Part shown: piece by piece, positions 53,507 to 57,205 of the stretch | How the letters are laid out: every line of letters begins with the position of its first letter | Numbering within the stretch: the stretch's first letter is position 1 | DNA from: Streptomyces sp. NBC_01775 | Lineage (GTDB): Bacteria; Actinomycetota; Actinomycetes; Streptomycetales; Streptomycetaceae | Reading direction: 5' to 3' | Length of the DNA stretch: 64,000 nt | Assembly (NCBI RefSeq): GCF_035917675.1 | Contig: NZ_CP109104.1 | Coordinates: forward strand, 3,286,001-3,350,000 | Position numbers and translations under genes: made by a program | Notes under the pieces: generated by a model | What the model saw: the letters and a program-made list of their open reading frames with translations, nothing else | Database searches by the model: none | What the model was told of the DNA's origin: nothing

Positions 53507-53892
53507 GCCGTGGAGTCTGGCAGCCGCCTTCGACAACCGACCGCCTCCGCCCGCCGCCCCGCCTCCCCCGGCCGCCCGCCTCCGACAGCCAGGGGCCGGC
53601 CGCCCGCGAGCGTGCCCCGGGGGTGGCGGGGGCGGGTGTGAATAGCGGGGTGAACTTCCGGGTTCTCGCATGGATTTCGTAAAAGCGGAAGCGGCCATTG
53701 CGGCGAACTCCATGAATAATTCTCGTCATTTCACTCATTCGGGCCGCAAAGCAGAAATCCATGGACTGGGGGGTCGGCTTTCGTGGATGCTTCACGGCAG
53801 GTCATGGAGGGCGCCGCGGCGGGCGAGGAGGAAGCGATGCGGGAGGTAAGTGTTAACTGGGCCCTGCGGTACGGGAATTGCCAGCCGAGACC
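53507..53892. promoter_or_regulatory. A+T-richer divergent control region with long-range hairpin
   Basis: This gap between the SnoaL-like gene (-) and the UrtA-like gene (+) changes from Pro-type G+C-rich DNA (53507-53635) to clearly A+T-richer DNA (53636-53780). A two-part inverted repeat lies in the latter: CATGGATTTC (53669-53678) with GAAATCCATG (53754-53763), and nested inside GCGGCC (53691-53696) with GGCCGC (53742-53747). The loop contains an A+T-rich stretch (ATGAATAATTCTCGTC). It may be an operator, an RNA leader structure or an insertion remnant. Confidence 0.6.
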
Positions 53893-55218
53893 ATGAGGCC
53901 GACCGCGAGAGAGCGCGGGATGGTCACGCTCATGACGCTGGCGGTCCTCGCCTACGTCCTGCTCCTCTCAGCGGTCACCCCGGCCGACCCGCATCCCAGG
54001 CCCCCGCTCCGGGTGGGGATCCTGCACTCCCACACCGGCCGGCTCGCCCAGGCGGAGAAGCCGCTCAACGACGCGACGGTGATGGCGATCGACGAGATCA
54101 ACGCCCAAGGAGGCCTGCTGGGCCGGAAGGTGGTGCCCATCCTCGCGGACGGGCGCTCCAGCCGAAGGGTCTTCGCCAAGGAGACCGAAAGGCTGCTGAC
54201 CAGGGGCGGAGTCCAGGTGATCTTCGGAGGGTACGAATCGGCCGCGCGCCGCAGCATGATCCCGGTGGTGGAGCGGAACGGCGGACTGCTGTTCTACCCG
54301 GCGGTCTACGAGGGCGGTGAGTCCTCACGCCGTGTGGTCTACACCGGGGCGACCCCGAACCAGTACATCACCCCGGCGATCCAGTGGTTCCTGGACAACG
54401 GGGCCCGCACGTTCTTTCTCGTCGGCTCCGACTACATCTATCCGCGCGTATCCCTCGCACTCGTGCATTCCCAACTGATGTCCTCCGGCGGGCGGGTGCT
54501 CGGAGAGGAGTATCTGCTGCCCCGTTCACGCGACGTCAAGGGCACCGTCCTCAGAATCCACAAGACCGAGCCCGATGTCATCGTCTCGGCTCTCGCAGGC
54601 GACACCAACGGCCCTTTCTTCAGCGCCCTCAGAAGCGGCGACGCCGACGCGCAGCGCATTCCCACGCTCAATCTCGTAGCGGACGAATGGGAGTTGCGTT
54701 CCCTGGAGGCCCGCAGGAAATCCGGGGCCTTCGTCGCGGGCGACTACGTCGCGGCCAACTATTTCGAGTCCCTGCCGGACCACGTCAACCAGACGTTTGT
54801 GCGGGAGTTCAAGCGGCGCTACGGCGTCCCGCACGTCTCCGACACGGTGGCGGCGGCCTACGCGGGGGTGCACCTGTGGGCACGTGCCGTGCGCGCAGCG
54901 GGAAACACCTCGCCGGAGGCGGTGCTGCGCTCGGTGCGCGGTGCCTCCGTCAAAGCGCCGGGCGGCACCGTCTACGCCGACCGGCAAAACCGTCACCTGT
55001 GGAAGCGGGCCCGCGTCGGGCGCATCCGGCTCGACGGCAGGATCGAGCCCGTCTGGTCCTCCGAGGCCGTCATCCGCCCGGCCCCCTACAGCCCGTACCG
55101 CAGCAAGCAGGAGTGGGACAGCCTCGTCAGCTACCTCTACCAGGGGTGGGGAAAGCGCTGGGAGCGCAAGCCCGGCGGTCCCAAACTCCCCCTGGAATCC
55201 CGGCCCGGCGCCCCGTGA
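53893..55218 (+). CDS. UrtA/AmiC-like periplasmic-binding-fold protein, orphan
   Basis: This 441-residue protein has one N-terminal hydrophobic segment (MVTLMTLAVLAYVLLLSAV) and an outer type-I binding fold of the urea/short-chain amide group: LRVGILHSHTGRLAQAEKPLNDATVMAIDEINAQGGLLGRKVVPILADG, VQVIFGGYESAARRSMIPVVE, LLFYPAVYEGGE, RTFFLVGSDYIYPR, the family end VYADRQNRHLWKRARVGRIRLDGRIEPVWSS and PYSPY. There is no lipobox. No urea-transporter permease, ATPase or urease gene is near, so a sensor or receptor role is more likely than transport (inference). ATG at 53893 is preferred; a TTG at 53878 is possible. The stop overlaps the next start (GTGA). Confidence 0.88.
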   Translation: MRPTARERGMVTLMTLAVLAYVLLLSAVTPADPHPRPPLRVGILHSHTGRLAQAEKPLNDATVMAIDEINAQGGLLGRKVVPILADGRSSRRVFAKETERLLTRGGVQVIFGGYESAARRSMIPVVERNGGLLFYPAVYEGGESSRRVVYTGATPNQYITPAIQWFLDNGARTFFLVGSDYIYPRVSLALVHSQLMSSGGRVLGEEYLLPRSRDVKGTVLRIHKTEPDVIVSALAGDTNGPFFSALRSGDADAQRIPTLNLVADEWELRSLEARRKSGAFVAGDYVAANYFESLPDHVNQTFVREFKRRYGVPHVSDTVAAAYAGVHLWARAVRAAGNTSPEAVLRSVRGASVKAPGGTVYADRQNRHLWKRARVGRIRLDGRIEPVWSSEAVIRPAPYSPYRSKQEWDSLVSYLYQGWGKRWERKPGGPKLPLESRPGAP

Positions 55219-56060
55219 AACACCACCGTCTGTGGCTCCCCTGGCTCCTGCTGCTGGGCTCGGGCGCGGGGCTGGTCGCCATCCGGCTCGCGGACCTCCC
55301 CGCCGTGGTGACCTGCCTGCTGCTGGTCGCCACGGCCGTGGTGCTCGTCAACGCGGGGCTGCCGCTGGCCAGGCACGGGGTGCGGCACGTGGTGGCCGAA
55401 CAGAACGTGGCGGTGCAGGCGGCGGTCTTCGCGATCGTGGGTTCGCTGTACGCCACCCTCGTCCACTTCTCCGTCGTGGTCGTGTGGGACGGCTACTCGC
55501 GCGCCGACACCACCGTCGCGCAGGAGGCCAACGCGCTGGCCGACCTGGAGCGGATGTCCAAGGGGTTCTCGGGCCCCGTGCACCGGCAGGTGCGCGAGAC
55601 GTCGCTGACCTACGCGGGCATCGTCATCGACGACGAGTGGCACGCCATGACCCGGCGCGGCTCGGACCCGCAGGCCCAGGCGGCGCTGGCCGAGCTGTGG
55701 ACGATCTACACCAGCATGGGCCCCGAGGACCGGGAGAACGCCCTGTACGCCCCCTCCATCGAGCGCCTCAACCAGCTCGACGACAACCGCAGGCTGCGGC
55801 TGCGCGCGGGGGTGCGGGACGTCCCGGCCGTGGTCTGGCTGATGTTCTACTGCGGCGGCGTCCTCGCGGTCGTCACCGTGTTCCTCTTCGGGGTCCGCCG
55901 CGGCTGGCTCCAGCGGGTCATCGTGTCCGTGCTGGCCGCCGTCGTGGCACTCACCGTCTTTCTGGTCACCTCCTTCGAGAAGCCCTTCGAGGGCGACGCG
56001 GGCATCAGGCCCGACACGTTCGAGACCGTCCAGGACCATTTGCGCTCCCAGGAGAGATGA
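55215..56060 (+). CDS. DUF4239 (bestrophin-like) membrane protein
   Basis: This 281-residue protein has three helices at the N-terminus (LWLPWLLLLGSGAGLVAIRLA, AVVTCLLLVATAVVLVNAGLPLA, AVQAAVFAIVGSLYATLVHFSVVVVW). A soluble helical middle follows (EANALADLERMSKGFSGPVHRQVRETSLTYAGIVIDDEWHAM), then two C-terminal helices (AVVWLMFYCGGVLAVVTVFLFGV, RVIVSVLAAVVALTVFLVTSFEKPFEGD). The last part, VTSFEKPFEGD..I.PD.F, is the hallmark of DUF4239, described as a bestrophin-like domain. Bestrophins are anion channels gated by Ca2+ in animals. GTGA overlap with the UrtA-like gene; 6 bases before the EF-hand gene. Confidence 0.85.
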   Translation: MKHHRLWLPWLLLLGSGAGLVAIRLADLPAVVTCLLLVATAVVLVNAGLPLARHGVRHVVAEQNVAVQAAVFAIVGSLYATLVHFSVVVVWDGYSRADTTVAQEANALADLERMSKGFSGPVHRQVRETSLTYAGIVIDDEWHAMTRRGSDPQAQAALAELWTIYTSMGPEDRENALYAPSIERLNQLDDNRRLRLRAGVRDVPAVVWLMFYCGGVLAVVTVFLFGVRRGWLQRVIVSVLAAVVALTVFLVTSFEKPFEGDAGIRPDTFETVQDHLRSQER

Positions 56061-56066
56061 GCCGCT

Positions 56067-56759
56067 GTGTGCCCCTGCCCCTCCTCATGGCCCCCGCTGT
56101 GGTCGTTCCGCCGACGGGCCCCCAGGCGTGTGCCCGCCGGGGCGCCGCCGGGATCGACCGGGGCCCGGCATCCGACGCTGGACCCGCTGCTGAGGTGGAA
56201 GGCGCACCGCTGGTTCGACTGCCTGCTCGATCCCGGCCCCGGCCCGGGGCCCCGGTATGACCGGCGGCTGACGTTCCACGACTACGAGCTGGCGGCCGAG
56301 CGCGTCGCGCGGGCCTTCCGGCGGCGCCCCGGGTGCCGGGAGCACCGCCGGCTGCACGGCTGTTTCCGCAAGCTGTGGCGGCTGCACGACAGCGCGGGCA
56401 CCGGCGTCCAGGACCGGGCGGCCTTCACCGCGGGGCTCGCCCAGGCGCTCACCGGGCGGCACCGGGCGCTGGTGGCGGCCGTCAACTCGCTGTGCTGCGC
56501 CATGGTCGACCTCGCGGACGGGAACGGCGACAACCTCCTGTCCGAGCGCGAGTACCGGGTCCTGCTGGCGGCGGGCTTCCGGCTCTCCTCCGAGCACGAT
56601 CTGCGCACCGCCTACCGCACCCTGGACCGCGACGGGAGCGGCGCGCTGGAGCACAACGAGGTCCACGAGGCGTTCGTGGAGTTCTTCACCAGCGCCGATC
56701 CCGACGCACCGGGTAACTGGCTGCTGGGTGCCCCTCGTTCGGGTGACGGCGGCCCGTAG
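56067..56759 (+). CDS. EF-hand calcium-binding protein
   Basis: This 230-residue soluble protein has two good EF-hand loops: residues 151-162 (DGNGDNLLSERE: Asp1, Asn3, Asp5, Ser9, Glu12) and 187-198 (DRDGSGALEHNE: Asp1, Asp3, Ser5, Glu9, Glu12). An N-terminal pair position (about 50-75, FDCLLDPGPGPGPRYDRRLTFHDYELAAERVARAF) keeps the flanking helices, but its loop is Gly/Pro-degenerate. The layout resembles calsymin/calerythrin-type streptomycete EF-hand proteins. The first 40 residues are Pro/Arg-rich. GTG start 6 bases after the DUF4239 stop, so it is in the same operon. It may report Ca2+ to the membrane partner (inference). Confidence 0.85.
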   Translation: MCPCPSSWPPLWSFRRRAPRRVPAGAPPGSTGARHPTLDPLLRWKAHRWFDCLLDPGPGPGPRYDRRLTFHDYELAAERVARAFRRRPGCREHRRLHGCFRKLWRLHDSAGTGVQDRAAFTAGLAQALTGRHRALVAAVNSLCCAMVDLADGNGDNLLSEREYRVLLAAGFRLSSEHDLRTAYRTLDRDGSGALEHNEVHEAFVEFFTSADPDAPGNWLLGAPRSGDGGP

Positions 56760-56917: not shown

Positions 56918-57205
56918 ATGTCTTTGCAAGACGAACTGACAGCCGCTCAACGCTGTCTCGACGATCTCGCCCGCAGCGTCGCCCGCTTGGAGGAGCGGGT
57001 CGGCACCGGGCTGGAGATACGCCGGGTGCGGAGCGACACCGAACACCTGAAGGAGTCGCTCTCCCTCCTGAGAGCTGCCGCCCCCCGACCACCGGCCGAG
57101 CCGCGCGTCGAGATGGTGACGATTCCCGAACAGCCCTACGACGCGGGGCTGTGGACGGACGTCGACGACGAGGGGCTGGGAGCGCAGGACCGGCACGCGC
57201 CCTGA
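56918..57205 (+). CDS. Small conserved protein (95 aa) upstream of sdh
   Basis: This 95-residue soluble protein has an N-terminal coiled coil (QDELTAAQRCLDDLARSVARLEERVGTGLEIRRVRSDTEHLKESLSLL), a short Pro-rich joint and an acidic end with MVTIPEQPYDAGLWTDVDDEGLG. Function unknown; similar proteins precede the succinate dehydrogenase genes in other streptomycetes as far as I recall. GGAGGTG lies 8 bases before the ATG. The gap to sdhC is about 50 bases, so it is probably the first gene of that operon. Confidence 0.8.
   Translation: MSLQDELTAAQRCLDDLARSVARLEERVGTGLEIRRVRSDTEHLKESLSLLRAAAPRPPAEPRVEMVTIPEQPYDAGLWTDVDDEGLGAQDRHAP

Follow-up and report, generated by a model that had tools for sequence, protein, structure and literature searches.

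A rare three-gene unit of Streptomyces, joining a UrtA/AmiC-type binding protein to a DUF4239 membrane protein, points to a bacterial sensing module of a kind not yet studied

What does a substrate-binding protein serve when its gene adjoins those of a DUF4239 membrane protein and an EF-hand protein, with no ATP-binding cassette (ABC) transporter genes beside it? The question is raised by a locus of Streptomyces sp. NBC_01775, analyzed in a window of 64,000 nucleotides (the whole stretch of DNA under study; positions are window coordinates unless a locus is named). Three genes follow one another on the + strand: gene 1 (53893..55218) encodes a UrtA/AmiC-type periplasmic-binding-fold protein of 441 residues without a lipobox, gene 2 (55215..56060) a membrane protein of 281 residues from the DUF4239 family (PF14023, named 'Bestrophin-like') and gene 3 (56067..56759) a calerythrin/calexcitin-like EF-hand protein of 230 residues. 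The stop of gene 1 and the start of gene 2 share a 4-base GTGA overlap (55215-55218) and a gap of 6 bases (56061-56066) leads to gene 3. An earlier note made from the sequence had given this layout with correct coordinates and had proposed a ligand- and Ca2+-linked ion or signaling system. The answer reached here is narrower: the unit is real, conserved and rare, the receptor–DUF4239 pair is its notable part, and a Ca2+ channel is not established. The reading that we tentatively prefer, with slightly less than even confidence, is that the core is a two-part receptor module outside ABC transport in which the binding protein would act on the DUF4239 protein, with a link to Ca2+ in one clade.

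The triad is complete, in the same order and tightly spaced in all three species that hold the three orthologues, namely the window, S. iconiensis and S. boncukensis, as the earlier note had supposed. Identities to the window for genes 1, 2 and 3 are 87, 84 and 70% in S. iconiensis and 77, 77 and 63% in S. boncukensis. The GTGA overlap is present in all three, and the junction of genes 2 and 3 is a 4-base overlap in S. iconiensis, the 6-base gap in the window and a 7-base gap in S. boncukensis. In the three pairwise species comparisons, the ratio of nonsynonymous to synonymous substitution rates (dN/dS) is 0.13-0.22 for gene 1, 0.20-0.34 for gene 2 and 0.36-0.45 for gene 3, which marks each of the three as a real gene under purifying selection, with gene 3 the least constrained. 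Both additional species were identified with two strict peptide patterns, which miss distant relatives, in a set holding a single genome for each species. Gene 2 relatives at E ≤ 1e-30 occur in 1 of 391 other Streptomyces genomes (G315), which is apparently the same as S. boncukensis since match lengths and identities are identical. Co-occurrence stands for the close orthologues, which were always neighbors, and fails for the families, which seldom are. At 30 other DUF4239 loci (L002-L031; 29 from other Streptomyces plus a second copy in the own genome; flanks up to 1.5 kb), genes 1 and 3 had no relative (E ≤ 1e-5); likewise, the 19 loci around other gene 3 relatives (L054-L072; drawn from 61 genomes, 16 of which, the own included, matched at E ≤ 1e-8) contained nothing related to gene 1 or gene 2 (E ≤ 0.01). 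Eight further DUF4239 loci (E ≤ 1e-26) came from a sample of 394 genomes of the class; seven of them were taken with wider surroundings, and no gene 1 relative was present there. In an order sample of 391 genomes, gene 2 relatives at E ≤ 1e-28 were present in 13 other genomes at 14 places; among the 10 places taken wide, a gene 1 relative was found only in genome G1163 and a gene 3 relative in none. Plasmid relatives of genes 2 and 3 are distant only (DUF4239 in 4 records, EF-hand in 13). A viral or phage origin was rejected: of three viral-contig scans, which used alignments of other DUF4239 subfamilies, two were empty and the third yielded a partial match, and a phage collection gave no match.

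The G1163 genome, a fourth Streptomyces, carries a gene 2 relative (3.6e-61) adjoining a gene 1 relative (365 bits), with identities to the triad of 40% for the DUF4239 protein and 44-45% for the binding protein. The two genes are divergent and their start codons are separated by 33 bases; they lie close to one end of a contig of 8.75 Mb, and the whole genome has no gene 3 relative at E ≤ 0.001. This indicates that the pairing outlasts a change of layout and location, and because G1163 has both proteins without a gene 3 relative, the core is assigned to the binding protein and the DUF4239 protein; the earlier view that the core includes the EF-hand protein is not upheld.

Two marks are common to the paired proteins. 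The first is a C-terminal tail of the gene 1 product (SPYRSKQEWDSLVSYLYQGWGKRW..., 55090..55215, + strand), which lies past the domain end and whose motif PYR...W...LY.GWG..W.R.PG occurs in all four DUF4239-linked binding proteins, marking them as a subfamily. With a tail-containing profile searched against 396 genomes of the phylum (own included), 24/24 other matches stop at model position 398-400 of 441, and on plasmids, where 777 records have a gene 1 relative at E ≤ 1e-40, all of the 20 matches listed end at query residue 399-402. The second mark is an extra N-terminal hydrophobic segment in the gene 2 product (55233..55289, + strand), present in 4/4 receptor-linked proteins compared to 0/22 other DUF4239 rows. 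Its best 16-residue mean is 1.44-1.91 in the linked proteins, whereas in the other 22 rows, the starts of which were assigned mechanically, the value is at most 0.99 or the N-terminus is too short. Tail and segment are candidate docking elements. Among UrtA-type relatives, the next downstream gene was scanned at 8 loci (of 13 taken wide) and encodes a BPD_transp_2 permease in 8/8; this is the slot held by DUF4239 at the triad. No DUF4239 match at E ≤ 0.01 was found near permease-type binding-protein relatives in 52 stretches including repeats (28 distinct frames). The binding-protein tree places the four linked rows in one group (92/78 support), and the DUF4239 tree places them together at 99/97 with one 15%-filled fragment row drawn among them, in our view a frame-picking artefact.

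The binding protein itself matches Peripla_BP_5 with 386 bits and UrtA (TIGR03407) with 347.3 bits, under the 492.75-bit cut-off. Its closest solved structures are 8tg1 (315 bits), three urea-binding proteins (218-227 bits) and AmiC (170 bits), and its identity to seven aligned permease-type relatives is 34-38%. The start codon position is common to the three triad species, all of which show a strongly hydrophobic N-terminus; in the window this segment (53920..53976, + strand; signal peptide or anchor) has a mean of 2.41 on the Kyte-Doolittle scale for the 18-residue window from residue 11. The N-terminal region has no Cys and thus no lipobox, as the earlier note had read it; a lipobox-like Cys is present in seven aligned relatives and in none of the four DUF4239-linked binding proteins. 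TPAD or APAD, which we take to be a possible signal peptidase I site, follows the hydrophobic stretch of the triad proteins, which could be cleaved there or retained as an anchor. The urea-type ligand that the note had implied is not supported. The available excerpt of PMC10392092 describes eight strictly conserved residues for urea recognition, and all eight are present in 7/7 other aligned relatives. By this partial account, the triad proteins (3/3) retain S122, Y141, E146 and Y190 and replace Trp120 by Tyr, Gln144 by Val, Asn246 by Ala and Ser274 by Asn or Val (the last depending on register). In gene 1 the first two of these changes fall in the motif Y114-E-S116 (54232..54240, + strand; UrtA Trp to Tyr, as in AmiC) and in V138-Y-E140 (54304..54312, + strand; urea-contact Gln to Val). 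Since four of the eight residues are altered in all three species, the triad pocket differs from the urea pocket of that excerpt, and the ligand may be a small amide or something else. Measured against the same residues, the G1163 pocket (Trp120 present, Gln144 to Thr, Asn246 on a gap, S274 Ser or Ala by register) is by alignment less altered than the triad pocket.

The receptor is an orphan, as had been claimed: no ABC permease or ATPase was found among the scanned window neighbors of gene 1, a second UrtA-like binding protein gene is absent from the genome (E ≤ 0.001), and the best UrtB match there stays under the family cut-off (152.6 against 250.3 bits, at 7.29 Mb). Nor was a urea permease and ATPase pair seen elsewhere for the gene 1 product to serve. 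A urea ABC importer was ruled out by the pocket residues, the sub-cut-off UrtA score and the missing partners. It is distinctly unlikely that the gene 1 product is instead an import receptor for a branched-chain-type ABC permease encoded elsewhere, with its neighbors incidental. The permease beside 8/8 scanned relatives and the sub-cut-off UrtB match at 7.29 Mb would fit such a role, yet there is no lipobox to fix the protein at a Gram-positive membrane, the tail is absent from other relatives, the pocket is altered and the linkage to DUF4239 recurs in two layouts.

As for gene 2, its assignment to DUF4239 was confirmed by a match to PF14023 of 193.5 bits, over a 32-bit cut-off and covering profile positions 2-232 of 232; 25/25 aligned DUF4239 members match this family, and gene 2 is 23-34% identical to the 22 others outside the triad. 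The protein has four hydrophobic clusters, the first with room for two helices, and between the clusters a soluble domain (55485..55823, + strand) drawn from hydropathy and charge, its helical secondary structure coming from a low-confidence model only. Bestrophins have a similar layout of membrane segments, a soluble helical domain and further membrane segments. The kinship to them that the note had suggested found no echo in sequence. A 25-sequence DUF4239 profile matched no bestrophin among 177,635 distinct PDB sequences at E ≤ 10, a set in which bestrophins are presumably present; PF01062 is absent from all four Pfam families of gene 2 at E ≤ 1 and from the best 25 of 47 Pfam families for the whole DUF4239 set at E ≤ 1. 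A genome search with PF01062 matched nowhere, controls included, and carries no information. 'Bestrophin-like' remains a family name only. Weak Pfam matches in the 25 members were to TctB (12/25, best 0.00059), DUF4064 (2/25, best 0.00024) and the two-transmembrane effector domains SLATT_1 and Saf_2TM; gene 2 itself reaches 14 of the 29.1 bits needed for TctB. In the open-access literature (subscription papers and preprints lay outside its scope), DUF4239 is named in two of 5.39 million papers, in one of them as a gene-network entry; the best matches listed for DUF4239 with EF-hand and Streptomyces contain no DUF4239, and no paper was found joining bestrophin with substrate-binding protein, EF-hand and Streptomyces.

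These data bear on the proposal that the locus encodes a ligand-gated, Ca2+-tuned channel, with a bestrophin-like DUF4239 pore gated from outside by the binding protein and coupled to cytosolic Ca2+ through the EF-hand protein, which we consider unlikely. The family name and the order of membrane segments and soluble domain speak for it, as does the distant genome G970, where a DUF4239 gene adjoins genes for two enzymes with EF-hand domains. Against it stand the missing sequence link between DUF4239 and bestrophins, the lack in G1163 of any relative of gene 3 (E ≤ 0.001), and a prokaryotic example: the available excerpt of PMC8496536 describes the Klebsiella bestrophin homologue KpBest as a Na+ channel that is not Ca2+ sensitive, so that, on that excerpt, a bestrophin fold alone would not mean Ca2+ activation. 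A bolder version, in which a clamshell receptor gates the DUF4239 pore of a multi-subunit ligand-gated bacterial channel and the EF-hand protein sets its Ca2+ response, is improbable; if true, it would be a split counterpart of animal receptor channels with the same binding fold. The three G970 genes (L085 7119-8021, 7911-9647 and 10582-12138) are arranged with the DUF4239 gene divergent from secretory-lipase-like and patatin-like genes, and both enzymes end in an EF-hand domain that is related to the gene 3 product.

The gene 3 product has two intact 12-residue loops out of four hands, the other two being degenerate: DGNGDNLLSERE (56517..56552, + strand; residues 151-162), with Asn at position 6 in place of the usual Gly, and DRDGSGALEHNE (56625..56660, + strand; residues 187-198). 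The note's count of two loops was right. S. boncukensis has three intact loops, and in S. iconiensis the second loop is met only by a looser pattern. Pfam EF-hand scores fall under the curated cut-offs (EF-hand_1: 24.2 against 25.4 bits), PDB matches over roughly residues 68-222 are to juvenile hormone diol kinase and calexcitin (four-hand calexcitin type), and no signal peptide was seen by eye; judged by its loop pair, the product is a predicted EF-hand Ca2+-binding protein. Genes 2 and 3 share one frame in the window, but a fusion of the two by stop-codon read-through was ruled out since the frame offset differs in the two other species. In the available excerpt of PMC10574481, calerythrin is grouped with sarcoplasmic Ca2+-binding proteins and described as an intracellular Ca2+ buffer, and excerpts of PMC5693915 and PMC10574481 give the Streptomyces EF-hand protein CabC a role in germination and aerial growth. 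It is quite possible, though on balance doubtful, that gene 3 encodes a plain Ca2+ buffer sharing an operon by chance with a functional pair, which fits the preferred two-part module minus its Ca2+ step. That gene 3 evolves fastest (dN/dS 0.36-0.45) and has a further intact loop in S. boncukensis only would agree with such a buffer; genes 2 and 3 overlap or lie at most 7 bases apart in 3/3 species, which argues the other way.

Brought together, the observations are consistent with the following mechanism. A UrtA/AmiC-fold binding protein with a remodeled pocket and a dedicated tail would dock on a DUF4239 protein with an extra membrane segment, and closure of the binding protein upon its ligand would alter the state of the DUF4239 protein, a putative signal transducer and possibly a pore. 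In one Streptomyces clade, where the genes are probably co-transcribed, the receptor carries a hydrophobic N-terminus, and the operon would later have gained a cytosolic calerythrin-like EF-hand protein, which may sense or buffer Ca2+ tied to the response. Several results weigh against this two-part module. The linkage is known from four genomes in total, three of them closely related. From its best start, the G1163 binding protein lacks a hydrophobic N-terminus (its highest 18-residue mean is 0.76), so it would be cytoplasmic, unlike the triad version, and a simple outside-receptor model is weakened. A STAS-domain gene (L124 9739-10329) adjoins this receptor and possibly encodes another partner; on the other side of the pair lie an MCRA-family (oleate-hydratase type) gene and a frame with a flavin adenine dinucleotide-binding domain (L124 4717-7503). 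The tail start is not unique since the AmiC alignment runs to residue 410, and in a search with gene 1 alone a match in genome G240 crossed a stop codon and extended as far as residue 417. Charge counts also bear only loosely on the topology of gene 2: over the 25 members the soluble domain averages 12.3 basic and 19.4 acidic residues, the loop that joins the final two segments 2.0 and 0.7, and the loop before the soluble domain (residues 50-66) 3.0 and 3.0, from which the domain leans weakly to the outside. The two single-chain models, both built on three-row alignments, have a mean predicted local distance difference test score (pLDDT) of 45.3, unusable, for the DUF4239 protein by AlphaFold and of 38.2 for the other. 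A strict one-branch test of the four DUF4239 rows holds in 3% of bootstraps, because of the 15%-filled row, and long-branch warnings stand near the linked rows in both trees (triad plus G1163 with a distant outgroup for the binding protein; G1163 with the triad for DUF4239). Finally, the promoter and terminator scans give nothing in favor of a single transcript: no sigma-70 consensus promoter was found at the locus, and the 2 terminator-like sites, against 1.0 expected, are at chance level, the only one on the + strand lying inside gene 2. The extra-segment result favors the pair, the STAS neighbor and the tree warnings count against it, and our estimate is left unchanged.

Some of these points bear equally on an AmiC-like regulation, in which the ligand sensor acts on a target other than DUF4239 and the two genes have only a promoter in common. 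We regard it as unlikely. Several pocket positions are AmiC-like rather than UrtA-like (Y114, SDYIYPR), and the G1163 version is without a hydrophobic N-terminus and lies next to the STAS-domain gene; conversely, the triad version has a strongly hydrophobic N-terminus in 3/3 species, and no regulator-like gene was seen among the scanned window neighbors, where AmiR itself was not searched for.

Upstream of gene 1, a block at 53728..53766 (+ strand) has 30/39 columns identical in the three triad species, compared to 109/313 columns for the whole upstream alignment, and is a candidate promoter or operator region. A short candidate inverted repeat was read by eye, ATGGATTTC (53670-53678) and GAAATCCAT (53754-53762), the latter arm falling within the block. 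On the opposite strand, 5' of the triad, lie a SnoaL-like gene and a family 5 solute-binding protein gene. About 500 bases 3' of it starts a membrane-protein frame without a family match, followed by genes for a succinate dehydrogenase/fumarate reductase flavoprotein (1207 bits) and iron-sulphur subunit (488 bits), both over cut-off. A 95-residue frame without a Pfam match (56918-57205), the surrounding DNA of which is kept in S. iconiensis too, lies between gene 3 and the dehydrogenase genes and is possibly a fourth member of the unit or a neighbor of the latter. The flanks are largely shared with S. iconiensis, save about 0.9 kb extra 5' of the triad there, a stretch that holds a metallophosphoesterase-like gene (L051 7516-8325) with no window counterpart. 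The S. boncukensis contig is too short for comparing surroundings; directly after the G315 EF-hand gene, L050 1-125 (minus strand) presumably resembles an IS630-type transposase.

Substrate-binding proteins with roles outside ABC import are known as a class. Within it, this rare Streptomyces triad suggests a form of bacterial sensing module that has yet to be studied, and a receptor–DUF4239 pairing would offer a first functional handle on the DUF4239 membrane family; with a tail common to the linked receptors, an added membrane segment in their partners and the divergent G1163 pair, the partnership can be tested directly. Compared with known systems, gene 1 resembles UrtA in its fold and 347-bit match to TIGR03407, and differs from it by a score below cut-off, four of eight urea residues altered, the missing lipobox, the extra C-terminal tail and the lack of an adjoining permease or ATPase. 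It resembles AmiC, the amide sensor of the Pseudomonas amidase operon (PDB 1PEA), in its binding fold (170 bits), the Tyr where UrtA has Trp, an identical SDYIYPR motif and an alignment extending to residue 410; unlike AmiC, the triad version has a hydrophobic N-terminus, adjoins a DUF4239 gene and has no AmiR-like partner among its scanned neighbors, no search having been aimed at AmiR. Gene 3 is similar to the calerythrin, Streptomyces Cab and calexcitin group by its PDB matches over residues 68-222 or so, and differs in having two intact loops and a membrane-protein operon partner. Gene 2 matches the DUF4239 (PF14023) profile over nearly its full length, whereas its extra N-terminal hydrophobic segment and adjoining receptor gene set it apart from the rest of that family.

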